A stretch of DNA of 26,249 nt from a virus, in IMG/VR virus record IMGVR_UViG_3300007276_000254, positions 1 to 26,249 of that record; one strand, 5' to 3'. This document shows, one piece after another, positions 2,720 to 26,249 of this stretch. The position numbers and the translations under genes are program-made. The notes under the pieces were generated by a model that had not been told where the DNA came from, made no database searches, and saw only the letters and a list, made by a program, of their open reading frames with translations. The first letter of the stretch is position 1, and each line of letters opens with the position of its first letter.

Positions 2720-2869
2720 ATGAACGATTTAACCTTTACCACGAAAGCCGAAGTTCTTAAGAAGTTCGAAGAATTATATATGAACCGGCCTAGCGATATT
2801 TATAATATGTATTTTATAAAAGCTTCGGCTACTTACGTACTACGAAAAGAGGCGCGAAGCAATGGTTAA
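2720..2869 (+). CDS. Small hypothetical protein (49 aa)
   Basis: A 49-codon frame starts at ATG 2720 and ends at TAA 2867-2869, overlapping the start of the PP-loop gene (ATG 2862) by 8 bp. It lies directly downstream of the dyad element and fills what would otherwise be a gap. Codon use (CTA, GAA, TTA) matches the genuine phage genes. The product is a small basic/amphipathic protein (begins MNDLTFTTKAEV) with a likely helical N-terminal half. I do not recognise a family. The overlap with the next gene suggests translational coupling. Confidence 0.6.
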   Translation: MNDLTFTTKAEVLKKFEELYMNRPSDIYNMYFIKASATYVLRKEARSNG

Positions 2870-3794
2870 GAAGAAACTACTTATAAGCTTTTCGGGGGGC
2901 GAAACTTCCGCCTACATGGCTGCGCGGCTTCTTACCGAAAAGCGCGACGAGTACGAAATAGCGCTAGTCTTCGCGAACACCGGGCAAGAAAACGAAGAAA
3001 CGCTAGTTTTCGTAGAAGCCTTCGCTAAGCATTTTAAAGTTAAAATTTATTGGATTGAAGGCCTACACTTCTACGGCCTCGGTAAAGGCACGCGCTTTAA
3101 ATTAGTAGACTTCGAAACCGCGGACCGGGTAGGGCGGACTTTTGAAAGCTTCGTAAGCGTTTACGGCCTGCCTAATTCTGCCGCGCCGCAATGCACCCGC
3201 GAACTAAAAGGCGCCCCTATAAAGGCCTTCGCGCGCTTATTTTTGGGCTGGCGTGGCTACTATACCGCGATAGGAATAAGGGCCGACGAAGCGGACCGTA
3301 TGACTAAAAGCGCTAGAAATAGCAAATTTATCTACCCGCTTATATCTACGTGGCCTACGACTAAGCCCGAGGTTAACGCTTTTTGGGCGGCTATGCCCTT
3401 TAGACTAAAGCTAAAAGGCTACGAGGGTAACTGCGTTTTTTGTTGGAAGAAGTCTAAAAAGAAGCTGCTAAAAATAGCGCAGGAACGGCCCGAAGTTTTC
3501 GCTTTTCCCGCACACCTAGAAGCTACTTACGGCGACTTTTTCCCGGCGCACCGTGCCGAAGCGTGGCGCAAAGCGGGCAAAGAAATACCCAAAAATATTA
3601 AGATGTTTAGGGGCAGCGTTAGCGCCTTAGATATCCTAGCCGAAGCCGCTACCCTGCCGCCAGTAGAAGTATCCGACGATAGCGTAGAAGTAGACATACT
3701 AGGCAGCCCTATAAACCCGGACGACTTAGACCTAGTAGGCGGCGATAGCTGCGAAGTTTGGGCAGACTGCCGAAGCGACGACGAACTAATATAA
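2862..3794 (+). CDS. PAPS-reductase-like PP-loop (ATP-pyrophosphatase) family protein
   Basis: This 310-aa protein belongs to the phosphoadenosine-phosphosulfate reductase/ATP-pyrophosphatase (PP-loop) superfamily. The PP-loop SGGETS lies at residues 11-16. The motif CTRELKGAPI at 111-120 matches the substrate-binding region of this group, and a CVFC cysteine pair lies at 191-194. Family members bind ATP and adenylate a substrate; in bacteria they act in sulfate assimilation, and the DndC subgroup acts in DNA phosphorothioation. In phages the substrate is usually unknown. Here the gene sits among DNA-modifying and DNA-processing genes, which hints at a nucleic-acid-related role, but that is inference. 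The last 60 or so residues are acidic and look like a low-complexity tail. Confidence 0.82.
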   Translation: MVKKKLLISFSGGETSAYMAARLLTEKRDEYEIALVFANTGQENEETLVFVEAFAKHFKVKIYWIEGLHFYGLGKGTRFKLVDFETADRVGRTFESFVSVYGLPNSAAPQCTRELKGAPIKAFARLFLGWRGYYTAIGIRADEADRMTKSARNSKFIYPLISTWPTTKPEVNAFWAAMPFRLKLKGYEGNCVFCWKKSKKKLLKIAQERPEVFAFPAHLEATYGDFFPAHRAEAWRKAGKEIPKNIKMFRGSVSALDILAEAATLPPVEVSDDSVEVDILGSPINPDDLDLVGGDSCEVWADCRSDDELI

Positions 3795-4466: not shown

Positions 4467-5848
4467 GCCTTAACAACCTCCACGACTACCAGCGATTCGG
4501 CATTAAGCACGTACTAGAGCGCGAAGAGGGCGCCGGGCTTTTCCTAGACATGGGCCTAGGTAAAACGGTAATAGCCTTAACGGCCATACGCGAACTACTA
4601 GACCGGCTAGAAGTTAGCCGCGTGCTAGTAGTAGGTCCTAAGCGCGTAGTAGAATCAGTATGGACGCAGGAAGCTACGAAGTGGCAGCATACCGCCGGGC
4701 TAACTTTTAGCCTAGTAGCCGGTACCGCTAAGAAGCGCGAAGCAGCGCTAGAAGTGGAGGCCGACGTTTACCTAGTTAGCCGGGATAACATACCGTGGCT
4801 ATGCGGCCTTTACGGCGGCAGCTTCCTACCGTTCGATCTACTTATATTAGACGAACTAAGCAGCTTTAAGAACCACCAAAGCCAGCGCTTCAAAGCGCTT
4901 AAGCGGGTCCGCAAGTCCGTAGGCCGGGTAATAGGTCTAACCGGGACCCCGGCGCCTAACGGGTTAATTGACTTATGGGCGCAGGTATTTCTACTAGACG
5001 GCGGCGAACGCTTAGGCCATAGCGTAGGGCGCTACCGCGAAGCTTACTTTAAGCCCGACGCCCGTAACGGCGCTATGGTTTATAACTATAAGCTGAAAGA
5101 CGAAGCGCAGCAAGGTAGAATCTATAAGGCTATAGGCGACCTTTGTATAAGTATGAAGGCCGAAGACTTCTTAGATATGCCGGAAAAAATACTAATTGAC
5201 GAACGCGTAAGCTTCGGCCCTAAGCTGGCTAAGGACTACGCCGACTTCGAGAAGGAATTAGTACTAAGCTTACTTAGCGAACTGGGCGAAAAAGAAATAA
5301 GCGTAGCCAGCGCGGCGGCCCTATCTAATAAGCTGCTACAGTTCGCTAACGGTGCGGTATATGACGAAGACCGCGAAGCGCACGCCGTACACGATCTTAA
5401 GCTAGATAAGCTAGAAGACATACTGGAAGCCGCGAACGGGCGGCCGCTGCTAGTAGCGGTAGCTTTCCGCCATGACGCGGCCAGGATAATGAAACGATTT
5501 AAAAGCATTAAGCCCCGGCAGCTAAGTGGCCAGCAAGATATAGACGACTGGAACGCCGGGCGCGTATCTATGCTAATCTTACACCCTGCCAGCGGCGGGC
5601 ACGGTTTGAATATCCAACACGGTAGTAATTTTATAGTATGGTTCGGCCTTAATTGGAGCCTAGAACTTTATAAGCAGCTTAACGCCCGGCTATGGCGCCA
5701 AGGGCAGAAAGCTAAGCAGGTTTTTATCTACAGGATCCTAGCCGCCGGTACGCTAGACGAACGCGTAATTAGGACCTTAAGCGAAAAAGACAGCACCGAA
5801 GGCGAACTGCTTAGCGCCGTTAAAGCAATTATTAAAAAATATATTTAA
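4460..5848 (+). CDS. SNF2-type DEAD/DEAH-box helicase
   Basis: A 462-aa superfamily 2 helicase/translocase of the SNF2 type, ATP-driven and acting on double-stranded DNA. Motifs appear in order: a Q-motif-like HDYQRFG (residues 8-14), Walker A DMGLGKT (30-36), DELS as the DEAH-equivalent motif II (131-134), TGTPAPN as motif III (161-167), and RLWRQGQ as motif VI near 410-416. Length fits the short phage SNF2 helicases. The start is GTG at 4460; an in-frame TAA at 4445 excludes an earlier one, and the start overlaps the previous stop. Proximity to the VRR-NUC nuclease suggests both serve replication or recombination. Confidence 0.9.
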   Translation: MLSLNNLHDYQRFGIKHVLEREEGAGLFLDMGLGKTVIALTAIRELLDRLEVSRVLVVGPKRVVESVWTQEATKWQHTAGLTFSLVAGTAKKREAALEVEADVYLVSRDNIPWLCGLYGGSFLPFDLLILDELSSFKNHQSQRFKALKRVRKSVGRVIGLTGTPAPNGLIDLWAQVFLLDGGERLGHSVGRYREAYFKPDARNGAMVYNYKLKDEAQQGRIYKAIGDLCISMKAEDFLDMPEKILIDERVSFGPKLAKDYADFEKELVLSLLSELGEKEISVASAAALSNKLLQFANGAVYDEDREAHAVHDLKLDKLEDILEAANGRPLLVAVAFRHDAARIMKRFKSIKPRQLSGQQDIDDWNAGRVSMLILHPASGGHGLNIQHGSNFIVWFGLNWSLELYKQLNARLWRQGQKAKQVFIYRILAAGTLDERVIRTLSEKDSTEGELLSAVKAIIKKYI

Positions 5849-5866
5849 ATTTTGTTTGTTTATTAT

Positions 5867-5907
5867 TTAAACTTTGTTTAATATTACGTATTCATTTAAA
5901 CCAAACC
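5867..5907 (+). promoter_or_regulatory. Dyad plus ATTTAAACC promoter/operator element, copy 2
   Basis: TTAAAC-TTT-GTTTAA (5867-5881) is followed by TATTACG and ATTTAAACCAAACC from 5894, again 20 nt from the dyad centre. It sits in the gap between the helicase and the 179-aa gene (ATG 5920). The 14-base downstream block is identical to that of copy 1. Promoter/operator function is inferred. Confidence 0.65.
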
Positions 5908-6503: not shown

Positions 6504-6935
6504 ATGAACTTAAAAGAAACCCTAGCCCGTATAGCGGACGACCTTAAGACGCTAGACGCGCAGATAGCCGAAACGGTTAGCACTATTACGCTAGGCTGCG
6601 AAGTAGAAGTAGCCGACCTAGCAGCCGACTACGAACGCCAGCTAGGTCGCTTATCAGCTTCGCACGCGGAAACCGACGCAGCTACTAAAGCGCGCTACGA
6701 AGCCTACCTAGATACGCTTAAAGACAAGGCGGCCGAAGCCTTAGAAGAACTCGAAGAACTACAGCGGACTACCGAAGACGCGCTAGAACTGCAGGCCGAA
6801 TTAGAGATGGACCGCAGCGGCGTTCTACCTACCGGGAACCTTAAGCAGCGGCTAGCCTTCGACAAGCTGGCGGCGTGCTGGGAAACCTTAAATTTAGACA
6901 ATCTTGAAACCTATCTAGACTCATGTACAAAATAG
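6504..6935 (+). CDS. Hypothetical coiled-coil protein
   Basis: A 143-aa acidic protein that is helical almost throughout. Alanine, glutamate and leucine dominate, and heptad-like spacing runs from about residue 5 to 105 (for example LEELEELQRTTEDALELQAE near 80-99). No enzyme motif is visible. Position in the replication block suggests an accessory, single-stranded-DNA-related or scaffolding role, but this is not supported by sequence. The ATG at 6504 is preceded by an A/T-rich leader (CTTAAATAAG). The opposite-strand frame at 6704-6901 is a shadow of this coiled coil. Confidence 0.7.
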   Translation: MNLKETLARIADDLKTLDAQIAETVSTITLGCEVEVADLAADYERQLGRLSASHAETDAATKARYEAYLDTLKDKAAEALEELEELQRTTEDALELQAELEMDRSGVLPTGNLKQRLAFDKLAACWETLNLDNLETYLDSCTK

Positions 6936-7102
6936 AAATCAAGATAACCGGCCGCGGGAAGGCTAGAAGGCTAGCTACTTTCTTAGAGTTAGTTAACTTT
7001 TACGATAAGCCAAATATAAAAAAGACGCTTATAGTAGAAGAAGACCGGCAGCTAGCCTTTCTTTTTAGCCCGGAAATTAACTTAGAAATAATAGCGGAAT
7101 AG
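6923..7102 (+). CDS. Small hypothetical protein (59 aa)
   Basis: A 59-codon frame starts at ATG 6923, overlapping the end of the coiled-coil gene by 13 bp, and stops at TAG 7100-7102. The product is basic at the N-terminus (MYKIEIKITGRGKARR) and alternates hydrophobic and charged residues toward the C-terminus (a likely small alpha/beta fold). Codon use (CTA, ATA, TTA) matches the phage. A terminator follows 28 nt later, so this is probably the last gene of the replication block. No family recognised. Confidence 0.6.
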   Translation: MYKIEIKITGRGKARRLATFLELVNFYDKPNIKKTLIVEEDRQLAFLFSPEINLEIIAE

Positions 7103-7130
7103 TGGCTAAAAATAGCGAATGTTTAAAATT

Positions 7131-7150
7131 AGCGCCTACGGGCGCTTTTT
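7131..7150 (+). terminator. Rho-independent terminator ending the replication block
   Basis: AGCGCC-TACG-GGCGCT (7131-7146) forms a 6-bp stem followed immediately by TTTT. It lies 28 nt after the 59-aa gene and before the long non-coding region. Confidence 0.8.
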
Positions 7151-7162
7151 GCGTTTTAGCAG

Positions 7163-7216
7163 GGTAAACACAAAAGGCCCTGTTTACCTTTGTGTTTACC
7201 TCGGTGTTTACCTTCG
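7163..7216 (+). repeat. TGTTTACC iteron-like repeats
   Basis: Three direct copies of TGTTTACC start at 7181, 7193 and 7205, exactly 12 bp apart. An inverted copy (GGTAAACA) lies at 7163-7170. Further copies of the TGTTTAC core occur at 7391 and 7489, and inverted at 7448-7455. The region 7103-7546 otherwise holds no gene: it contains the terminator, these repeats, an AT-rich tract (7247-7300) and an inverted repeat (7307-7359). Regular spacing close to the helical repeat is typical of replication-initiator or packaging-protein sites; which one is unknown. Confidence 0.7.
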
Positions 7217-7306
7217 TAACTACTTAAGAGCCAATATGTTAGAACCTATTTACTATACTATATATACTATATATACAATAAGAAGAAGAAATATATAGAA
7301 GGCGAA

Positions 7307-7359
7307 GGGGTAGGGGTCTGCACGCGAGGCGCTAGCACCCGTATAGACACCCCTACCCC
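7307..7359. repeat. 11-bp inverted repeat in the non-coding region
   Basis: GGGGTAGGGGT (7307-7317) is exactly complementary to ACCCCTACCCC (7349-7359), with a 31-nt loop that contains the small palindrome GCTAGC. The arms are strand-biased (G-rich on one side, C-rich on the other). No U-tract follows, so it is not an obvious terminator. It lies next to the iteron-like repeats and AT-rich tract. Confidence 0.75.
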
Positions 7360-7546
7360 CGTAAGGATATATAGAGTTTTTTGTGTTCTTTGTTTACTTT
7401 GGCACTTTTTCGGCTTATAAGTAGCTGGCTATTAGCAAAGTAGTAGGGGTAAACAAAGAATTTACTTGAAGGGGTCCCGGCTTAGTTGTGTTTACTTTTG
7501 GCTTTTGTGGCTCTTTTTTCGTAAAATTGTTTAAAATAATAGAACT

Positions 7547-8020
7547 ATGGCAGCACCTTTCGGGAATGAATACTACCGCAATAGGATAAGAGTAGGGGCC
7601 CCGCGTAAGTTTGACACGCCGGAAGCCTTAGCCGAAGCTTTTAACGACTACTTCGAGGACGTGGAGGCTAACCCGCTAAAAGAATCTACACTAATAAAAG
7701 TTAAGGAAGGACTGAGCGAGAAAGTTAAAGTTTTTAAGCGCCCTTTGCCGCGTGCTATGACGCTGCAAGGCTTCTGCGCCTTTACCGGGCTGAGCATGGT
7801 TACGCTTTACGAGTACGATAAGCAAGATGGTTATACTAATATCATAGCGCAGGCGCGCGAAGTTATGTACGGCCAGAAGCTAGAAGGCGCTGCGGCTGGC
7901 TTATTTAACGCTTCGATAATAGCCCGCGAACTAGGCCTAGCCGAAAAGTCCGAACAAAGAATATTGCACGAACAGCCCCTTTTTGATGATAGCGACGACG
8001 CCGAAGAAGAAGACGCTTAA
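7547..8020 (+). CDS. Terminase small subunit
   Basis: A 157-aa DNA-packaging small subunit, which recognises phage DNA and hands it to the large subunit. The central part (MTLQGFCAFTGLSMVTLYEY, about residues 66-85) fits the helix-turn-helix DNA-binding domain of this family, and the helical C-terminal part (including NASIIARELGLAEK) fits the oligomerisation region and ends in an acidic tail. Its position directly before the large subunit, with a roughly 35-bp overlap, supports the call. The upstream non-coding repeats may include its recognition site. The ATG at 7547 is preceded by an A/T-rich leader with no Shine-Dalgarno sequence. Confidence 0.85.
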   Translation: MAAPFGNEYYRNRIRVGAPRKFDTPEALAEAFNDYFEDVEANPLKESTLIKVKEGLSEKVKVFKRPLPRAMTLQGFCAFTGLSMVTLYEYDKQDGYTNIIAQAREVMYGQKLEGAAAGLFNASIIARELGLAEKSEQRILHEQPLFDDSDDAEEEDA

Positions 8021-9960: not shown

Positions 9961-9993
9961 ATCACTTATTTTTAAAGAAAGTTTGCGTATTCG

Positions 9994-10027
9994 TTAAACA
10001 TTGTTTAATATTACGTAACAATTAAAC
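9994..10027 (+). promoter_or_regulatory. Dyad plus ATTAAAC promoter/operator element, copy 3
   Basis: TTAAAC-ATT-GTTTAA (9994-10008) is followed by TATTACG and ATTAAAC at 10021-10027. The central three bases differ from the other copies while both arms are kept. The downstream block is one base shorter than in copies 1 and 2. The ATG of the next gene is at 10037. Confidence 0.6.
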
Positions 10028-10036
10028 GATAAGGAA

Positions 10037-10420
10037 ATGAAAATTTTAGGCTTTACAGAAGATTTTACAGTTTGCGAGTGCTGCGGTAAGAAGAACCTTA
10101 AAGGCACTTTCGCCTTTAAGACTAACGAAGGCGAAGTTTTTTATTGGGGTTCTTCCTGCATTAAAAAGGCTTACCAACTGGACAAAAAAGGCTTTACCGC
10201 TAAGATTAAAGCAGACGAAAGCAACCGAAAAGCCGAAGCGCGCGCAGAATACTACGCTACCCCCGAAGGGGCTTTTTATAAAAGTTACATAGGAAGCGCC
10301 GCTCACGAAGCCGACTTAAAGGCCGGCGGCTTTTCGCTAGTGTTTAGCAAAATAGAGGCTTCCGAACTTAAGGCCAAAGAAATAAGGGCAAAGCACGGTT
10401 TTAGCTACCTTTCCTTTTAA
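10037..10420 (+). CDS. Cysteine-containing accessory protein, probable zinc-binding
   Basis: A 127-aa protein with an N-terminal CECCGKKNLKGTFAF (C13, C15, C16) and a later GSSC (C41). This pattern, cysteines then K-x-L-K-x-T and a Y-W-G-S-x-C motif, recurs in small phage proteins of unknown role and suggests a zinc knuckle; the C-terminal part is a charged helix. The gene has its own dyad element upstream (copy 3) and a strong terminator right after the stop, so it forms an independent transcription unit between packaging and tail genes. It is not obviously structural. Function unknown. Confidence 0.72.
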   Translation: MKILGFTEDFTVCECCGKKNLKGTFAFKTNEGEVFYWGSSCIKKAYQLDKKGFTAKIKADESNRKAEARAEYYATPEGAFYKSYIGSAAHEADLKAGGFSLVFSKIEASELKAKEIRAKHGFSYLSF

Positions 10421-10439
10421 GCCCTTCGGGGCTTTTTTT
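10419..10439 (+). terminator. Rho-independent terminator
   Basis: AAGCCC-TTCG-GGGCTT (10419-10434) followed by an uninterrupted T tract to 10439. The stem begins within the stop codon of the upstream gene, the typical layout of an efficient intrinsic terminator. Confidence 0.9.
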
Positions 10440-10468
10440 ATTGCTACGCTTTTTACTATTTTAGCTTT

Positions 10469-11687: not shown

Positions 11688-13144
11688 GCGTAATTAACCA
11701 AATAACCGCGCCGGCTAACGGCGCCGACGTTTTTAGCCCTATGGTATTCGAGTTTAGCTTTGAAGCTGCTACGTGTAGCTTCGTAGATCTAACCGGCATA
11801 GCAGCTATAGACGTGCCACTAAGCTACGCTACGCTGCTAGAAGTAGGGGGCAGCGTGCGAATAACTAACGGCGCCTATTTGGGGGTCTACAGGATAACCG
11901 AAATAACGCCCGACGCGCTGCTAAGGCTTACGCTAAACACGCCTTTCATAGGTTCGTCTGCGGCTACCGGGTCTACTAGATTCACGCCAGAAGGCCCTAC
12001 AGTCTTTCAACTAATAGCGGGCTACAGCGCAGGCGACGAAGCGGCGGTTAAGCCATGGCAAGTTACCGACGAAATTAGAGTTAGCCCGAACCTTAGCGGC
12101 GTCTTCCGGGTAGACGTTAGCGGCTTCTTACGTTCGCGCTTTACAGTTACCGCGCCCGTAGTAGGCCCTAACGTACCTATAAGCATACGCTACGCGGTAC
12201 GGCTTAAGAGCGCTACCGATATACCCGACGACACCGGGGCGCTTACTGCTTACTATGGGCTAGAAGCGCTTACGCTGCCGCAGCAAGGCGGCGACGAGGT
12301 AGTAGGCGAAAGGCCTATTTTATTCTTCGGCGGAGCGCCTACGCTTTATAGCTTAGCGCTGGCTAAAGGAATTATTAACAATTTTATAGCGGATCCTAAC
12401 GCGCCCGGCGAAACTACCGCCGGGGCTACGGTGGACGTAAGACTTTTAAGCTGCCAGCCTAAAGTTATAAGCTGGTTAGGCACTTCGCCTACGGCCGGCT
12501 TTAGCGTTACGCCTGCGCTTCCTACGTGGATAGCCGCCACGGCCAACGGTAATAATATCGATTTAGTAATTAACCCATGCACGGCCGGCGCTGGCGACTA
12601 CCTTAGCGCCGACTATAGCCCGGTAGACTACTTAGTAGCTGGCGAAGTCAACAGCGTTACGGGCTGCTATAGTTTCGACTTCGACCTAGGCGGCTTACTG
12701 TTTACGCTGGGTATTTGTGTAACGCCTATAAGCGAAATAGTAGACGTATGCGCTAGCGATTCGCTAATCTTCGGCTGGCTAAACCAGCGCGGCGGCTTTT
12801 CTAGTATGGCCGTAGAAGGGCGCTACGTGAATGGCCGGGACTTCGGAAGCGATACGCTAACCGTAGACGCTAACCAAGTGCTGAAGCGCGTGCAATTTAA
12901 AGACGTTTACGATTATACCGATATACGCGGCGGCGTTATTTCTAAAAATCAAATAGACCTGCTAACTAGCCTACGGTCTGCTATTCAAGTCTACCTATAC
13001 AACACCGCTACGCAGGCCTTCGACATTCCTATAGTGCTAGACCGGGCTAGCTTTTCTACGTATGGCAACAAGTTTAACCAAAGCGAAACGCGCTACGGGT
13101 TTAGATTCAGACGGGCGCAGCGCCTAGTAATTCAATCGCAATAA
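11684..13144 (+). CDS. Tail/baseplate structural protein (unassigned)
   Basis: A 486-aa beta-rich protein with no enzyme motif. The N-terminal 160 residues alternate short strands and turns; a cysteine-containing middle follows (residues about 255-360), and the C-terminal 130 residues (beginning near FGWLNQRGGFSSM) form a distinct domain that I associate with Bacteroidota phage tail operons. Position between the tail completion gene and a large baseplate-like protein, upstream of the tape measure, supports a tail or baseplate role. The ATG at 11684 overlaps the preceding stop (ATGA). Function beyond 'structural' is not supported. Confidence 0.65.
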   Translation: MSVINQITAPANGADVFSPMVFEFSFEAATCSFVDLTGIAAIDVPLSYATLLEVGGSVRITNGAYLGVYRITEITPDALLRLTLNTPFIGSSAATGSTRFTPEGPTVFQLIAGYSAGDEAAVKPWQVTDEIRVSPNLSGVFRVDVSGFLRSRFTVTAPVVGPNVPISIRYAVRLKSATDIPDDTGALTAYYGLEALTLPQQGGDEVVGERPILFFGGAPTLYSLALAKGIINNFIADPNAPGETTAGATVDVRLLSCQPKVISWLGTSPTAGFSVTPALPTWIAATANGNNIDLVINPCTAGAGDYLSADYSPVDYLVAGEVNSVTGCYSFDFDLGGLLFTLGICVTPISEIVDVCASDSLIFGWLNQRGGFSSMAVEGRYVNGRDFGSDTLTVDANQVLKRVQFKDVYDYTDIRGGVISKNQIDLLTSLRSAIQVYLYNTATQAFDIPIVLDRASFSTYGNKFNQSETRYGFRFRRAQRLVIQSQ

Positions 13145-15193
13145 ATGACGACGCAGCTATATATAAACGGGCTTCTAGTAGATACGCAAAGCGCCGAAAT
13201 AGTACTAGACCTTCAGGCGTTTACCTTCGACAACCTAGGGAGCCGCCGCGGCAGTTATTCCAACGTCTTCGAGTTACCGAAAACGAATACGATTAAAGCG
13301 CTTTTCGATAACTGCGACATAGTTAACAGCTTAACACCGGTACCCTATAGCCGTAACACGTGCAAAATTTTTATGGACGGCGCGCTAGTTATCGACGGAT
13401 CCGCGGTTATACTGGAAGCTTCCGAAGCTTTCCGGGTTTATATTAGCGCGGGTAATAGCGACTTTTTTAAAAGTATTTCTTCGATAAAATTAGTAGACGT
13501 AGACCTAGTAGAATACGACCACATATACACCGGGCCGAACGTAACCGACCGGCGCGAAACTACCGAAGGCTTCGTTTACCCTAATGTAGATTACGGCTTT
13601 TTTGAGTATGCCGCACCCGGCGCCGCGTCTTATAGCTTTCGCTTCTTCCAGCCTAGTTTTTGGGCGAAGACTATAATAGGAAAGGCTATAAGCGATCTAG
13701 GCTACACGCTGGCCGGCGACATACTTAACGCGCTTACGTGGCGAAGCCTAGCCGTGCTATGCCGTGGCGCCGTGGCAGACCTGCTAGATAGCTTAGCGCA
13801 GTATCGCTTCACTATAGATTATAACCAGCTAACCGAAGACACCGCGCAAAAGATAAATTTCCCCGACCGGGTTTATGATAAGTCCGCGCTATATAAAGCC
13901 GACGCTACCGCAGGGCAGTTCGTTTACAGCCCGAACGTGGCCGACCGCACCGAAATAAGGTTTGAAATAAGCCTCAGCGGTAAGGTTATAACTAACTTAC
14001 CTAGGCGCTATACTAACGCCGAAGTATGGGTAGACCTGCTTATATACGACGCCGCCGGCACGCTGCTATTAACGCTTTCGCCTACGCCGGTAGTTTTCGA
14101 AGACCGCTTTTTCGGAGTCTTTAACGTCTACCGGGCGCCTTCTAGCGGGACCCTAGAACGTGATCTAAATTTTACTTACCCGTCAAGACGCGACGACGTA
14201 ACCGCCTTTAGCGCGCTGCTAGCCTCCACGGCCGACTTAACTACCTTACGCTTCGGCTGGCAGGTAAGGAGCAACCGCCCCGGCTACGGCCTTAAATATC
14301 TACGCTTCGAAAATTTAGAGTTTATAATAAACCAAGTACCAAACAACGGCACGCGCTTAGGCGGTCCGGTTATACCTATTAACGTAGCCGCGGCTAACGT
14401 GCTGCCGGCGGCGCCTACGGTAGGCGACCTACTGCTAACTATTGCTAACCTAGAAGGCCTAATTATACAAGTAGACGAAACAGCTAAGCGGGTTAACACT
14501 TCGCGACTAGACGGCCTAGTAGACCGCAAGGCCGACGCGCTAGACTGGTCTACTAAGCTAGACCTAACCGAAGACCCAAAGCTAACTTATTCGCTGGAAG
14601 GCTTAGCCCGGGTTAACTACTACGCCTTCGCCGGCGATGATAAGGATCCGCTGCTAGAGCCGAACGCAGGCCGCGGCCGGGTAGACGTACCTAACGAAAA
14701 CCTAGAAGCCGAAAAGACTATTTTTACTTCCAAGTTTAGCCCGGTGCCCGTGCTGCCGACGATGCAGAATAGCCGAACTATGGGCCGCGTCTTTACCGGT
14801 GAAAAGTACACCTTTGACGGGTTCAACTATAACCTAAACGACGATCTTAAACTAAGTGAATTCGGCGCCCGTATCGCCGTACTTTCGCCGGCTGAAGCTT
14901 CGCTAGATATTATAGTAGATGCTAACGTAATTAACTACGAAGTAAACGCCAGCGCGCTAAGCTTCGAACGGGCCATAAGAGATAACTACCGACTGCTAGA
15001 CGCGGTAACCGATAACACTAAAATAGTAGAAGCGCTATTCTTACTAGACCTTACCGATATTCAAAATATAGATTTTACTAGGCCCGTCTACGTAGACTAC
15101 TTCGGCGCTTTTTTCTATATTGAACGTATTAAGCAATTTAAGATTAACAGCCGCGAAAGCTGCTACGTACGACTAGTTAACTTAGCTATATGA
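13145..15193 (+). CDS. Large tail/baseplate protein
   Basis: A 682-aa protein whose N-terminus (residues 1-60: a short strand, then DLQAFTFDNLGSRRGSYSNV and FELPKT) matches a conserved start of large tail proteins from Bacteroidota phages, with an R-x-x-x-Y-S-N-x-F-x-L-P signature. The rest is beta-rich, with repeated Y/F-x-D patterns, and no hydrolase motif. It begins directly after the preceding TAA and shares an ATGA overlap with the following 49-aa gene. In siphoviruses such proteins sit at the tail tip near the tape measure gene. Distal-tail or baseplate hub identity is not resolved. Confidence 0.7.
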   Translation: MTTQLYINGLLVDTQSAEIVLDLQAFTFDNLGSRRGSYSNVFELPKTNTIKALFDNCDIVNSLTPVPYSRNTCKIFMDGALVIDGSAVILEASEAFRVYISAGNSDFFKSISSIKLVDVDLVEYDHIYTGPNVTDRRETTEGFVYPNVDYGFFEYAAPGAASYSFRFFQPSFWAKTIIGKAISDLGYTLAGDILNALTWRSLAVLCRGAVADLLDSLAQYRFTIDYNQLTEDTAQKINFPDRVYDKSALYKADATAGQFVYSPNVADRTEIRFEISLSGKVITNLPRRYTNAEVWVDLLIYDAAGTLLLTLSPTPVVFEDRFFGVFNVYRAPSSGTLERDLNFTYPSRRDDVTAFSALLASTADLTTLRFGWQVRSNRPGYGLKYLRFENLEFIINQVPNNGTRLGGPVIPINVAAANVLPAAPTVGDLLLTIANLEGLIIQVDETAKRVNTSRLDGLVDRKADALDWSTKLDLTEDPKLTYSLEGLARVNYYAFAGDDKDPLLEPNAGRGRVDVPNENLEAEKTIFTSKFSPVPVLPTMQNSRTMGRVFTGEKYTFDGFNYNLNDDLKLSEFGARIAVLSPAEASLDIIVDANVINYEVNASALSFERAIRDNYRLLDAVTDNTKIVEALFLLDLTDIQNIDFTRPVYVDYFGAFFYIERIKQFKINSRESCYVRLVNLAI

Positions 15194-15342: not shown

Positions 15343-17727
15343 ATGGCAGAAGAAAGCATTTTATTAAGAGTAGGTATAGACGAAAACCAAATAGCCCGAA
15401 GCGAAGCGGCGGTAATTTCTGCGCGCGACAGTATAGACGCGCTACGCGAAGCGAATAAGAAGCTAGCCGACGAAGGCAAAAAGAATACGACCGAATACGT
15501 AAAAAACGAAACGGCGCTAAGGGAACTTAACACGACGGTAAGAGAAAACCAGCGCGTATTAGATGCTAACCAGAAGCTGCAGAAAAGCGCCGGCGGATCT
15601 ATACGGGAATTACGCGCCAACGTATCGCGGCTTAAGCAGGAATACGTGGACCTAAGCGGCGCCGAACGTGAAAACGCGCAGGTAGGCGGCGCCCTCCAAA
15701 AAGAACTACTAGCGCAGACCGAAGCGCTTAAAGCACTAGAAGGCGAAATAGGAGTAACCGGACGCAACGTCGGGAACTACACGGCTTCGATCTTGGAGGC
15801 TACAGACGGCACCGGGCTATTTAGCAAGGCGCAGCAAGCGCTAGCCGTAGCGCAGAAGGTAGCCAACGCCGCCACGGAAGGCGGAACTATAGCTACGCAG
15901 TCCTTCGGGAAAGCTTTAATAGCTACCGGCATAGGGGCGTTTATAGTTGTGATAGGTTCGCTTATTAGCTATTTAACCCGGACGCAGGAAGGTATGGACA
16001 AAGTAGCGCAGGCTACCGAAGCCGTAGGCACCTTTGTGGCCGTAGTATTCGACGAGTTTAGCCGCCTGGGTAAACAGGTAGCAGATAATATTATTCCTAC
16101 CTTCCAAGGCTTAGACGAAGTACTGGCCGGCATTTTTACGCTAGACTTCGACCGGGTTAGCCGCGGCATGGATAGGGTAGGCGAAGCGGTAGCTAATGTA
16201 GACGGCATTAACTTATTAGAAGTAGCCGGTAACGCTGCAGCGGCAGCGAAGGAAGCCGCCGGCCTAGAAAAGCAAATACAGAATATTACTAGAGCCGAAA
16301 AGGCGCTAGACCTAGAGCGCGCACAAGGGCGGCAAAACATAGAGGACCTTAAGAAGCTAGCCGAAGACACTACTAAAAGCACGGCTGAACGTGCGGCCGC
16401 TTCCGAAAAAGCCCTAGGCTTAGAACTGGCGCTAGAAGCTAAAGCTATAGGTTTACAGAAGCAACGGATAGAAGTACTAAAAGCTAAAAACGACCTAAGC
16501 AGTAGCACGGACGCCGACATTAACCGAGTAATAGACGCCGAAATAGAACTAGCCAACTTACAGCAAGAGAGCGCTACTAAGCAAATAGAACTAAATAACA
16601 AGCTTAACGCGCTACGAAAAGAAAGCGCGGCAGCGGGCGAAAAGCAGGCGGCCGACGAAAAGAAAGCGCAAGAAGTACGCGACGCGGACGCGGTAAAGCA
16701 AGCGACCGAAACTCAAAAGCAGCTTAACGCCGACTTCGTAGACGCGATTAAGAACCGGGCCGCCGAAGTGGACCTAGCTATAAGGGACTCCATTAATGAG
16801 GTCCGCCAACAATTCGCCGACGGGCTTATAGACCTAGAAACCTACCAGACACAACTAGACCAAGTAGAAGCGCTAGCGCTAGAAACGCGCCGCGCTGCGG
16901 TAGAAGGGCAGCTAGAAGTTAACCGCACTAACGCCGAAATCGACGCGCAGACGCGGCTAGCTATAGAGCGGGACCTACAAGCGCAGCTAAGACAATTACA
17001 AGATGAACAAGTAAGCGCCGGGGTAGCTAGTAGACAAGCCGAACTAAACGCCAATAAGGTATTAGCCGACGAGAAGAAGACGCTAGCCGACGAAACCGCC
17101 AGCGCTCAGATAGCCGCCGAAGACGCGGTATTAAATGCCGCTATTAGTATCTTCGGGGCGCAAAGCACCGCGGGTAAAATAGCTGCCAGCTTTCAGGCGT
17201 TACTAGATACCTACCGCGGGGCTAACTTAGCGCTAGGTACTATTCCGCCGCCTTTCGGGCAGATAGTGGCAGCGGCTACCGTAGCGCAGGGCTTAGCCAA
17301 CGTAGCGAAGATTAACAGCAAAGCGCCGCCTAAGTTCGAAGAAGGCGGCGGCATAGGAATAGACGGACCTAGCCACGCCGGTGGCGGGGTAGACGTAGCG
17401 GTAGGCGGGCAGACCGTGGCCAACGTAGAAGGCGGCGAGGGGCTTTTCGTAATGAAGAAAAGCGCCTATAAAAGTCTTCGCGCGCTTTCGGCCTTTAACC
17501 AAATGCACGGCGGGCGAAGCTGGCTTAGTGGAGGTAGTAGGCACCTAGCCGACGGCGGGGCTATAGCCCGATCTAGCGCGCCGGCTTTAGACCGCAGGGC
17601 TTTAATAGACAGCCAGCAAAACTTCGAGCAAGCTATAAGCCAGCTAGAAATAGTAACGAAAGTAACCGACATTAACCGCGTAAACGCAGAGGCTAAACTA
17701 GTTAGGATTAGCAGCGATTTAAGCTAA
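15343..17727 (+). CDS. Tail tape measure protein
   Basis: A 794-aa protein that sets tail length and leaves the tail at DNA ejection. Long coiled-coil segments (about residues 10-140 and 290-590, rich in A, E, K, Q and L) flank hydrophobic stretches, the clearest being ALIATGIGAFIVVIGSLISY at about 190-210, with another near 595-650. The C-terminus has a glycine-rich run (from about 665) containing EGGG and HAGGG patterns that often end tape measures. Three opposite-strand frames inside it are shadows of its biased codons. Length implies a tail of moderate length. It precedes the hairpin at 17734 directly. Confidence 0.88.
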   Translation: MAEESILLRVGIDENQIARSEAAVISARDSIDALREANKKLADEGKKNTTEYVKNETALRELNTTVRENQRVLDANQKLQKSAGGSIRELRANVSRLKQEYVDLSGAERENAQVGGALQKELLAQTEALKALEGEIGVTGRNVGNYTASILEATDGTGLFSKAQQALAVAQKVANAATEGGTIATQSFGKALIATGIGAFIVVIGSLISYLTRTQEGMDKVAQATEAVGTFVAVVFDEFSRLGKQVADNIIPTFQGLDEVLAGIFTLDFDRVSRGMDRVGEAVANVDGINLLEVAGNAAAAAKEAAGLEKQIQNITRAEKALDLERAQGRQNIEDLKKLAEDTTKSTAERAAASEKALGLELALEAKAIGLQKQRIEVLKAKNDLSSSTDADINRVIDAEIELANLQQESATKQIELNNKLNALRKESAAAGEKQAADEKKAQEVRDADAVKQATETQKQLNADFVDAIKNRAAEVDLAIRDSINEVRQQFADGLIDLETYQTQLDQVEALALETRRAAVEGQLEVNRTNAEIDAQTRLAIERDLQAQLRQLQDEQVSAGVASRQAELNANKVLADEKKTLADETASAQIAAEDAVLNAAISIFGAQSTAGKIAASFQALLDTYRGANLALGTIPPPFGQIVAAATVAQGLANVAKINSKAPPKFEEGGGIGIDGPSHAGGGVDVAVGGQTVANVEGGEGLFVMKKSAYKSLRALSAFNQMHGGRSWLSGGSRHLADGGAIARSSAPALDRRALIDSQQNFEQAISQLEIVTKVTDINRVNAEAKLVRISSDLS

Positions 17728-17749
17728 TAAAAAAAGCCCCGTAGGGCTT
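17728..17749 (-). terminator. Terminator, best for the minus-strand gene
   Basis: AAGCCC-CGTA-GGGCTT (17734-17749 on +). Read on the minus strand it is followed by an unbroken T tract (A-run at 17728-17735 on +), placing it just after the stop of the 62-aa minus gene. On the plus strand it is followed by AAATTTT and could also stop tape-measure transcripts weakly. Confidence 0.85.
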
Positions 17750-17754
17750 AAATT

Positions 17755-17943
17755 TTAGTAGTCGAAATAGCCCTCTAGTTCTCTTTCCCTTCTGGCGCCG
17801 CCTTCCGCCTCGGCGTAAAGGTTGAAAATTTCCGAGGTTGTTATCTCGTTTTCAGCGGCAAAAGTCTCTATAAACTTCTTCGCTTCCGCTCGGTCTTTTG
17901 TGTCTTTGCCTATGTAAGCGGCCACTTCAGTATAGGATGCCAT
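17755..17943 (-). CDS. Small hypothetical protein (62 aa), minus strand
   Basis: A 62-aa acidic, helical protein (begins MASYTEVAAYIGKDTK, ends GYFDY) on the strand opposite to all structural genes. It is supported by three independent signals: a complete dyad plus ATTTAAACC element (copy 4) upstream in the right orientation, an A-rich leader before the ATG, and a T-tailed hairpin terminator just past the stop. Codons differ somewhat from the flanking genes (more GAG, TTT, TCG). No recognised family. With the two small genes upstream it forms an accessory cluster between tail and capsid modules. Confidence 0.72.
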   Translation of the reverse strand: MASYTEVAAYIGKDTKDRAEAKKFIETFAAENEITTSEIFNLYAEAEGGARRERELEGYFDY

Positions 17944-17953
17944 ATTTTTGATT

Positions 17954-17989
17954 GGTTTAAATTAATACCCAATATTAAACAAAGTTTAA
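17954..17989 (-). promoter_or_regulatory. Dyad plus ATTTAAACC promoter/operator element, copy 4 (minus strand)
   Basis: On the minus strand the order is TTAAAC-TTT-GTTTAA (17989 to 17975), TATT, then ATTTAAACC beginning at 17962, exactly 20 nt from the dyad centre, as in copies 1 and 2. The 62-aa gene starts at 17943. A degenerate plus-oriented copy (CCAAAC-AAA-GTCTAA, 17997-18011, then ATTTAAAC) lies alongside. Confidence 0.65.
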
Positions 17990-18144
17990 ATAAATACCAA
18001 ACAAAGTCTAATATTTATTTAAACAATTTAAACCGGGCGCCGCCGGCGTGAACCCCGGAAGCCTACCGGGCGCGGAAGCTTATTTATAAGCCGGCGGTAA
18101 GTACCTAGCGCAGGGGCGCAGAAGTTAGCGTTAGAAGACATAGT
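17990..18144. other. Non-coding gap with GC-rich patch between minus-strand units
   Basis: The gap between the membrane-protein stop and copy 4 holds a degenerate plus-oriented dyad (17997-18011) and a GC-rich patch (about 18033-18120) with the direct repeat CCGGGCGC (18033-18040 and 18066-18073) and the palindromic GCTTATTTATAAGC. The largest frame here (minus, 18028-18141, 37 aa) is arginine-rich and unconvincing. A structured RNA is possible but not shown. Confidence 0.35.
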
Positions 18145-18306
18145 TTAGCGGGGTAGTTGTTTACCTATAAAGTACTTAGTAAGTTTTTCCGAAAGGTCTA
18201 CGCCGGTAACGACGTACCATATAGACAAGATAGGAAAGGCGACGAGAAAGGAAGCCAGCGCCACGAAAACAAGGATAGCAGCCGCTAAGCGTTTAAAGTA
18301 TATCAT
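18145..18306 (-). CDS. Small single-helix membrane protein (53 aa)
   Basis: A 53-codon minus-strand frame from ATG 18306 to TAA 18145. It has a short basic N-terminus (MIYFKR), one strongly hydrophobic segment (about residues 7-34) and a C-terminal soluble tail (TGVDLSEKLTKYF, then GKQLPR). The charge pattern fits a single-pass inner-membrane protein. Its ATG overlaps the stop of the upstream ribbon-helix-helix gene (ATGA), so the two are one operon. Small phage membrane proteins may act in superinfection exclusion or lysis, but nothing here decides this. Confidence 0.68.
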   Translation of the reverse strand: MIYFKRLAAAILVFVALASFLVAFPILSIWYVVTGVDLSEKLTKYFIGKQLPR

Positions 18307-18443
18307 TCTTTTAAATAGTTATGTATGTACGATTTTAGAACCCCGGTCTGCGTCTTATTTTCGCGTTTTACCTTAGCGGCGAAGCGGGTTTTTAAGGCTT
18401 TCGGCAGGTTCACTTTAATTTGGTCTAAGTCTTTTTCGGACAT
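18303..18443 (-). CDS. Ribbon-helix-helix DNA-binding protein (46 aa)
   Basis: A 46-codon minus-strand frame from ATG 18443 to TGA 18303. The sequence has the shape of a ribbon-helix-helix (Arc/CopG-type) protein: a short strand (DQIKVNLP, residues 6-13), helix A (KALKTRFAAKVKREN), and helix B beginning TQTGVLKSYIHNYL. Such proteins bind DNA as dimers through the paired strands and usually repress promoters. Length matches the minimal fold. It overlaps the membrane-protein gene by 4 bp. It is a candidate regulator of the dyad elements in this phage, an inference with no direct evidence. Confidence 0.7.
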   Translation of the reverse strand: MSEKDLDQIKVNLPKALKTRFAAKVKRENKTQTGVLKSYIHNYLKE

Positions 18444-18511
18444 ATCTTAAAATTTATAAGGGAAAGTACCGTGATTTTTTTGCAAATAAAAATTAATTTA
18501 CTAGCGAATTT

Positions 18512-19723
18512 ATGGAGGTACTAAATATAGAAGGCGTAATAGGGCAGAAAGGCGACACGATTTTAGCGCCGGGCGAAAAGGTTTTTAGCTTCGCCGACCT
18601 AGAAAACTTTCTGGCGTCTTACGGCGGCGGGCCTTTTGAGGCCGTAATAAAAAGCCCCGGCGGCAGCGTAGAAGAAGGCTTTAAGATATTCGATAAGCTT
18701 AAGGAGTACGACGTAACTACCGTAGCGCTAACCGCAAACAGCATAGCCAGCGTAATATTCTTAGCCGGTAAGGTTCGGAAAATTACGCCTACTTCGCAGC
18801 TTATTATACATAACGCGTGGATAAGTGGCGAAGACCTAGCAGGCGAAAAGCTTAACTTTCATACGCTGCAGGCGCTTACGCAAATCTTCGCCGAAACCGA
18901 CTTAAGAATACTTAGCGTATATTCGAGCGTATCGGGACCTAATAAGGCTAGTAAAATTCTGGCGCTTATGGCCGAAGAAACTAACCTAGACGCGGCTACC
19001 GCTATAGCGTTAGGCTTCGCTACCGAAATACTAGAAGAAGACTACGCCGCGCTGGCTTTCCGTAATCGGGTTATTACCTATAGCCAAAACTATATAAAAC
19101 TTATAGCGAAAGAAGAAGAGGCCAAAAAAGAACAAAACCAAATTTTAATAAATACAAAAATGAAAGACGAAGACAAAGTAGGCGCTTTCGAAAAGATGCT
19201 AAAAGGGCTTAAGAACCTTTTTAAATTGCAGCTTAAGAACATGGCGACCACAACGAGCGAAGGCGTAGCTATTTTTATAGCCGGAGCCGAAGAAGACGGC
19301 CTGCTAGGTAAGAGCGTTTACCTAGCCGAAGAAGGCCTGCCAACCGAAACGCCGGCGCCTGCGGGTAGCCACGTTTTAGAAGACGGCACTACTATAGTAG
19401 TAGACGAAGCCGGGCTAATTACCGAAGTAATCGAAGCCGCACCGGTAGAAGACGTGGAAGCGCTTAAGGCAGACTTCGCGGCGACTACCTTAGCAATGGA
19501 AGAAGAAAAGCAGAAGCTAGAAGCTAAAGTAGCGGCGCAGGCTAAGCTAATCGCAGACGGTAATAAGAAGCTAGAGAAGCTTAACGCGGACTTCCTAGAC
19601 TTGAAGAACGCGGTACTAGGCGACCCGGACGACAAGAAAAAAGAAGCACCGGTAGACTTCGCAAAACTTACGCCGGGCGAACGCATTAAAGCGCGCGCAA
19701 TGGCTAAGGCTGAAAATATTTAA
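18512..19723 (+). CDS. ClpP-like prohead protease with C-terminal scaffold-like region
   Basis: The N-terminal ~190 residues are a ClpP-type (S14) prohead protease: SPGG at 48-51, the nucleophile region NSIAS ending at S80, and H100 in IIHNAW. The third catalytic residue is less clear; it may lie near residues 156-160. The C-terminal 200 residues are not protease: a helical, Ala/Glu/Lys-rich coiled coil (about 315-375) ending in a basic tail, as in scaffolding proteins. An in-frame ATG at 19160 (residue 217) after an AT-rich stretch could give a separate 187-aa scaffold. The ATG at 18512 begins the capsid module, immediately upstream of the major capsid gene. Confidence 0.85.
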   Translation: MEVLNIEGVIGQKGDTILAPGEKVFSFADLENFLASYGGGPFEAVIKSPGGSVEEGFKIFDKLKEYDVTTVALTANSIASVIFLAGKVRKITPTSQLIIHNAWISGEDLAGEKLNFHTLQALTQIFAETDLRILSVYSSVSGPNKASKILALMAEETNLDAATAIALGFATEILEEDYAALAFRNRVITYSQNYIKLIAKEEEAKKEQNQILINTKMKDEDKVGAFEKMLKGLKNLFKLQLKNMATTTSEGVAIFIAGAEEDGLLGKSVYLAEEGLPTETPAPAGSHVLEDGTTIVVDEAGLITEVIEAAPVEDVEALKADFAATTLAMEEEKQKLEAKVAAQAKLIADGNKKLEKLNADFLDLKNAVLGDPDDKKKEAPVDFAKLTPGERIKARAMAKAENI

Positions 19724-25858: not shown

Positions 25859-26249
25859 GAGAAGTATTTATAACAGCCTTATCAGAGGCGATTCTAGTCA
25901 CTGTGACGCAGTCTGGCGAAGAGATGGCAAAACAGTACGCCTTGGAGGCGTTGGGCTATAAGGAGGAGGCCGAATTGGCCGAGATCGCAACAGCCGCCGA
26001 CAGGGTAGCTACTGGATTGGATGCCGCCGCAACAGCCGCCGACAGGGTAGCTACTGGATTGGATGCCGTCGCAACAAGTGAGGACAGGGTAGCTACTGGA
26101 TTGGACGCCGTCGCAACAGCCGCCGACAGGGTAGCTACTGGATTGGATGCCGTCGCAACAAGTGAGGACAGGGTAGCTACTGGATTGGATGCCGCCGCAA
26201 CAGCCGCCGACAGGGTAGCTACTGGATTGGATGCCGTCGCAACAAGTGA
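25855..26249 (+). CDS. Repeat-rich tail fibre protein, N-terminal part (3' end outside window)
   Basis: ATG 25855 overlaps the previous stop (ATGA), and the frame is open to the window end. The first 44 residues (MREVFITALSEAILVTVTQ then a charged helix) are unique; from 25987 the protein is a string of 14-residue repeats (ATAADRVATGLDAV and ATSEDRVATGLDAV, six full units plus the start of a seventh). Fourteen residues equal two heptads, so a coiled-coil shaft is likely, as in other phage fibres. Codons (TTG, GGA, AGG) are unlike the structural genes upstream. No receptor-binding domain is visible inside the window. Confidence 0.75.
   Translation, partial: MREVFITALSEAILVTVTQSGEEMAKQYALEALGYKEEAELAEIATAADRVATGLDAAATAADRVATGLDAVATSEDRVATGLDAVATAADRVATGLDAVATSEDRVATGLDAAATAADRVATGLDAVATS
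25987..26249 (+). repeat. 42-bp tandem repeat in the fibre gene
   Basis: Six full 42-bp units start at 25987, 26029, 26071, 26113, 26155 and 26197, and a partial seventh begins at 26239. Each begins GCAACA and contains GACAGGGTAGCTACTGGATT. Two unit types (AA-D and SE-D) alternate from 26029 on, giving an 84-bp higher-order period. The near-identity of codons implies recent duplication. Confidence 0.9.

Follow-up and report, generated by a model that had tools for sequence, protein, structure and literature searches.

The gp15 superinfection-exclusion protein of the long-tailed phage HK97 is the product of a moron and a small predicted inner-membrane protein. HK97 is a temperate phage. Inner-membrane exclusion proteins of long-tailed phages have also been linked to tape measure proteins (PMC10883804, in the portion available). 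Among regulators, the minimal repressors of the CopG/Arc type (PF01402; CopG, Arc, ParG) are built from a strand region and the two helices of the ribbon-helix-helix (RHH) fold, and Arc contacts its bases through Gln9, Asn11 and Arg13 (PMC12645479, again in the portion available). In type II toxin-antitoxin modules, the antitoxin carries a toxin-binding segment beside its DNA-binding domain and the pairing of the two genes is obligate. Here we describe a phage locus in which a gene for a predicted RHH protein is coupled to one for a small predicted membrane protein. Comparison of related sequences indicates that these genes make up a real two-gene unit, conserved within a bacterial virus group of which little is known, and searches of an open-access library yielded no published account of this pair.

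The window, that is the whole stretch of DNA that we analysed, is an entire virus record of 26,249 bases. Its features around the pair are as follows:

15343–17727: tape-measure-like gene, flanking the unit on one side
17734–17749: terminator-like hairpin, usable by transcripts of either strand, where the tape-measure-like and 62-aa genes converge
17755–17943, minus strand: 62-aa acidic ORF, accessory and outside the conserved pair; no relative found
17952–18011, minus strand: promoter-like block 5' of the 62-aa ORF, holding the dyad TTAAACnnnGTTTAA at 17975–17989
18012–18144: G+C-rich gap from the membrane-protein stop codon to the dyad block; no unusual RNA fold
18145–18306, minus strand: 53-aa predicted membrane protein with a single helix; family in 14 of 16 records, model
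18303–18443, minus strand: RHH, a predicted 46-aa DNA-binding protein, CopG/Arc-like; Pfam RHH_1, model, purifying selection
18444–18511, no strand: divergent intergenic region of 68 bp between RHH and the head protease
18455–18468: diverged window copy (9 of 14 positions identical) of TTTTGGGGAATTTA, a candidate RHH operator and/or promoter
18512–19723: head maturation protease gene, flanking the unit on the other side, with a 411-aa gene next

The coordinates, minus strand and lengths that a preliminary description had given for the three ORFs were exact, as was the ATGA overlap shared by the RHH and membrane-protein genes. These minus-strand genes do split the tail module from the capsid module, with the tape-measure-like gene on one side and the head protease and the 411-aa protein on the other. 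From its position and conservation, the 411-aa protein is presumably the major capsid protein. No tRNA genes were found in the window, and the lack of any match to Rfam led us to reject all Rfam RNA families. For the G+C-rich gap, the idea of a structured RNA was likewise rejected: the two strands of 18020–18150 gave z values of 1.10 and 0.32, and shuffled sequences folded equally well. Elsewhere in the window, a phosphoadenosine phosphosulfate reductase-like gene (2862–3794) lies within the phage replication block, and a tandem array (25932–26225; 42-nt spacing, copies 70–90% identical to a reference copy) lies inside the last plus-strand gene, which runs off the record.

Relatives were gathered by protein scans of IMG/VR, and our record-level counts rest on 16 records. 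These counts leave out L029–L032 (4 of the 18 protease matches, at 25–33%), in which neither gene was seen; L068 and L075 start inside the protease, which places the corresponding junction outside those sequences, and the survey of the pair omitted the tape-measure relatives L008–L011 (27–32%). The pair is present in other phages, where the preliminary description had proposed to look for it. A profile of the membrane protein matched 14 of the 16 records (the window, or G000, together with G001–G012 and G015), G013 and G014 being the exceptions. In all 14, the membrane gene and the protease were on opposite strands, the former lying immediately upstream of the protease or of RHH, and 11 of them carried RHH at the same tape-measure/head-protease junction. 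The other three (G008, G009 and G010) had no RHH ORF, with about 80 bp separating the membrane gene from the protease. G013 and G014 have a 52-aa RHH-like ORF without the membrane gene, at the same junction and on the same strand, and this ORF shares 39% identity with one RHH protein of our set across 36 residues (E 0.006). The junction beside the tape-measure-like gene was inherited once and is therefore not independent evidence. The number of independent lineages is smaller than that of records, since some records nearly duplicate one another: the capsid-type protein is identical in G008 and G009, and G005, G006, G007, G012 and G015 form a close set.

Our evolutionary inference is based on a tree built from the capsid-type protein, which places the window itself with weak support. 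There, G008–G010 sit beside the RHH-bearing G003 (support 96/96), within the RHH-bearing group. Because of this nesting, the simplest history would be one loss of RHH with retention of the membrane gene. The membrane protein diverges fastest among its neighbours, with 31–43% identity to the window's copy, as against 61–74% for RHH, 58–61% for the protease, 67–69% for the tape-measure-like protein and 69–82% for the 411-aa capsid-type protein.

Both reading frames persist among relatives whose synonymous sites are saturated, which argues that they are not chance ORFs and agrees with the earlier view that minus-strand coding is real for these two genes. Among 28 pairs of RHH genes, pS was 0.52–1.02 and pN 0.16–0.30 in 27, the 28th pair being near-identical; for the membrane-protein gene, pN (0.33–0.46) was below pS (0.61–0.98) in every one of 28 pairs. 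The L022/L024 comparison of the latter gene gave pS 0.54 and pN 0.09, and among four near-identical records there were 4–8 synonymous versus 1–2 non-synonymous changes in five of six pairs, the sixth being identical. Measured against synonymous randomisation, codon use was phage-like for RHH (p 0.0006) and the 62-aa ORF (p 0.003) and not clearly so for the membrane gene (p 0.06), a weak test because a 37-aa ORF in the G+C-rich gap (18028–18141, minus strand), otherwise unsupported and not believed, also scores p 0.002. Window-wide, CTA, GTA and ATA are favoured and TCA, CTC and TTG are rare.

The RHH fold proposed earlier for the 46-aa protein is borne out by profile and model, both of which point to a fold like that of CopG, Arc and ParG. 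The predicted structure (pLDDT 81.5) has helices at 15–28 and 32–45 with a strand region ahead of both; the RHH strand needs a dimer and is invisible in a monomer model. Foldseek searches of the PDB ranked ParG, AmrZ, ORF56, PutA and CopG at the top with Arc lower (E 0.2–2.5, values of 0.2 or worse being expected at 46 residues), and repressors, CopG and RHH proteins were frequent among matches to viral models (E 0.08 or worse). With Pfam RHH_1, eight of ten members of the family score E ≤ 0.1, 7e-6 being the best value; the window's own RHH misses every profile cut-off, and its sequence had no match among solved chains at E ≤ 1. All ten aligned RHH proteins carry Q8 and K10, and nine carry H12, the window alone having N12. 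Equated by strand position, these residues would correspond to Gln9, Asn11 and Arg13 of Arc.

We scanned 11 records, eight of them RHH-bearing, for the 14-nt element TTTTGGGGAATTTA, allowing one substitution. It occurred once each in G001, G002, G003, G004, G006, G012 and G015 (seven of the eight), always in the RHH–protease interval only. Under the same rule it was found neither in the window nor in the RHH-less G008 and G010, nor in G014. Alignment of ten intervals revealed the diverged window copy listed above and a single change in L025. The element has been kept despite saturated synonymous sites, and is consistent with an RHH operator or, equally, with a promoter element of RHH. The window combines the sole N12 protein of the ten with a diverged copy of the element, a covariation that amounts to one case. 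A second half-site 22 bp away is not claimed, because the regions share ancestry, making the shuffle control unfair; offsets of 9–10 scored equally.

RHH had also been put forward as the candidate for binding the dyads TTAAACnnnGTTTAA. Exact sites number four in the window, one in G001, four in G008 and one in G010, and there were none in G002, G003, G004, G006, G012, G014 or G015 among the 11 records scanned. Since dyads are present in the RHH-less G008 and G010 and missing from six RHH-bearing records (all of those just named except G014), this assignment fails, and the dyads are probably bound by something other than RHH. In the window, promoter-like blocks with TTAAACnnnGTTTAA lie at 2647–2706, 5845–5904, 9981–10026 (+) and 17952–18011 (−), some 30–40 bp upstream of gene starts, and the last is complementary to 5845–5904 (87% over 60 nt).

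This last block precedes the 62-aa ORF, which had been credited with its own promoter and terminator. The idea stands in so far as the promoter-like block is common to other operons and the hairpin at the gene's end matches one at 10416–10442 (96% over 27 nt), although a generic terminator scan alone was at chance level. No relative of the 62-aa ORF was found in the gathered loci, in phage records or in IMG/VR, and it lies outside the conserved unit; the initial notion of a three-gene cassette was therefore overstated, RHH and the membrane protein being conserved as a pair. From the membrane gene to the tape-measure-like gene the sequence is variable, with a DUF5675 gene and a lipoprotein gene in G002 and G004, a 70-aa ORF in G006 and G012, and nothing notable in several relatives, and this stretch is an accessory slot. 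A DUF5675 gene followed by one for a lipoprotein whose C-terminal segment is hydrophobic was seen at 6732–7627 (−) in L017 and 12387–13297 (+) in L007, the slot being shared and the orientation reversed. The DUF5675 motif H-x-A-N...Q-L-x-G-C-I-A is kept in all four proteins aligned.

The 53-aa product is, as previously suggested, predicted to be a single-helix membrane protein, with a long hydrophobic helix at 2–34 and a short helix at 38–46; the family motif comprises R6, P25 and T34-G35-x-D37. It had no match of weight in Pfam, PHROG or NCBIfam. A search with 12 members of the family gave just two matches to PHROG holins, each from a single member (E 0.14 and 0.35), and a second search returned no holin family. 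A profile of the protein matched none of 395 Bacteroidota genomes, a set with no positive control. The idea that this protein is the phages' only holin was rejected: a separate Phage_holin_4_1 gene lies elsewhere in six of 14 records (G001, G003, G006, G008, G012 and G015), and all six carry the membrane gene.

Searches beyond the gathered records added little. A DNA search of phage records led nowhere, and tblastn in phage records gave no match for RHH, the membrane protein or the 62-aa ORF save six weak RHH matches (E 0.2–0.4); the capsid-type protein had no relative among the phage records searched. The sole genome match, L043, was a chance match within a 281-aa host protein. A capsid-type profile identified distant chromosomal relatives in 4 of 395 genomes (the phylum of a Bacteroidetes MAG), with neither RHH nor the membrane gene at their junctions, and these relatives suggest a host among the Bacteroidota. 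The DUF5675 protein of G004 matches Cellulophaga phages, but Vibrio phages more often, and so leaves the host undecided.

We tentatively propose, at a probability of about 0.42, that the pair is a moron-like unit set against the structural genes, in which an autoregulated RHH gene, divergent from the head operon, accompanies a small inner-membrane effector. RHH would form a CopG/Arc-type dimer and bind the divergent region common to the head-protease operon, at or around TTTTGGGGAATTTA, thereby repressing the bicistronic mRNA that encodes it and probably having some influence on the head operon as well. Translation of the second gene, coupled to that of the first, would give a small inner-membrane protein with the short conserved TGxD segment just past its helix, which may act on the cell envelope. 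The case for regulation by RHH is stronger than that for the role of the effector, for which a function of the superinfection-exclusion type is slightly more likely than one accessory to lysis, the two being close. It is also conceivable, though we regard it as improbable, that RHH acts as a bidirectional switch where the head operon begins, tying virion-gene expression to a lineage-specific membrane protein that excludes sister phages; this would be a superinfection-exclusion system of virulent phages with its own repressor and no sign of lysogeny, in which a change in the DNA-contact residue goes with one in the DNA element. The lysogeny-related role once entertained for the locus was not upheld, in that no tyrosine integrase (Phage_integrase) was found in any of the 16 records, all of which may be fragments. 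This absence is weak evidence, because end repeats were absent from all 11 records inspected for them.

Alternatively, the membrane protein might be an antiholin, pinholin or lysis-timing protein, with RHH timing its expression. In G004 the minus-strand order is RHH, membrane protein, DUF5675 and a lipoprotein whose C-terminal hydrophobic segment makes it u-spanin-like by anatomy, with junctions from 2 bp to overlapping. Because DUF5675 and the lipoprotein gene adjoin the pair so tightly, expression at lysis time is possible in this genome, and the operon favours a lysis-linked role over exclusion. The same two genes are convergent to the pair in G002, and in two Cellulophaga phages 33-aa and 44-aa proteins with a hydrophobic stretch precede DUF5675. 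Yet DUF5675 is present in just 2 of the 16 records, and its opposite orientations in G002 and G004, shared by the spanin-like gene, resemble those at an insertion hot spot. Moreover, the gene before DUF5675 passes the hydropathy cut in only one of five other phages (of the Cellulophaga proteins, the 44-aa one alone passes), the separate holin gene occurs alongside the membrane gene, and Phage_lysozyme is found in G003, G006 and G012 (3 of 11). Searches of solved structures with DUF5675 and with three possible lysis proteins found no match. We consider a lysis role for the pair somewhat unlikely.

A different division of labour, which we hold to be doubtful, would make RHH chiefly an older regulator of the structural operon and the membrane gene a later passenger of unrelated function. 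The position of TTTTGGGGAATTTA between RHH and the protease fits such a history, as does the solitary RHH-like gene of G013 and G014; however, G008–G010 manage without RHH, G014 lacks the element (G013 was outside the scan), and homology to these distant RHH proteins is weak. Two small coupled genes with the regulator first also recall a toxin-antitoxin module, as the preliminary description had remarked, with a membrane toxin and RHH as antitoxin. The genes are separable in both directions, which argues against this: three records have the membrane gene without RHH, two have the RHH-like gene without the membrane gene, and in G008–G010 RHH would have been lost with its partner retained. In addition, the modelled RHH ends at helix 2 without a toxin-binding tail, and PADLOC found no match for six proteins, so that neither the toxin-binding segment nor the obligate pairing of type II modules is seen here and a toxin-antitoxin function is very unlikely.

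The analysis thus removes two readings, that of a toxin-antitoxin module and that of RHH as dyad binder, and leaves a previously undescribed family of small membrane proteins that, in a group of uncultured phages, is associated with a minimal repressor and its candidate operator; both the regulator–operator pair and the effector are now directly testable. Compared with lysis cassettes containing DUF5675 and u-spanin-like genes, the locus is similar in that these genes trail the pair in one operon in G004, and differs in the separate Phage_holin_4_1 of six membrane-gene records and in a membrane protein without a meaningful holin-family match. Like HK97 gp15, the membrane protein is small and predicted to lie in the inner membrane of the host of a long-tailed phage, a likeness for which we claim no homology; HK97 is temperate, and here no integrase was found in the 16 records. 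The exclusion proteins described in the available portion of PMC10883804 offer a parallel by analogy only. Finally, the RHH protein resembles the minimal CopG/Arc-type repressors in its strand region and two helices, here within 46 aa, and departs from them in being coupled to a membrane protein, in sitting within a virion gene block and in having an operator that is as yet a candidate.
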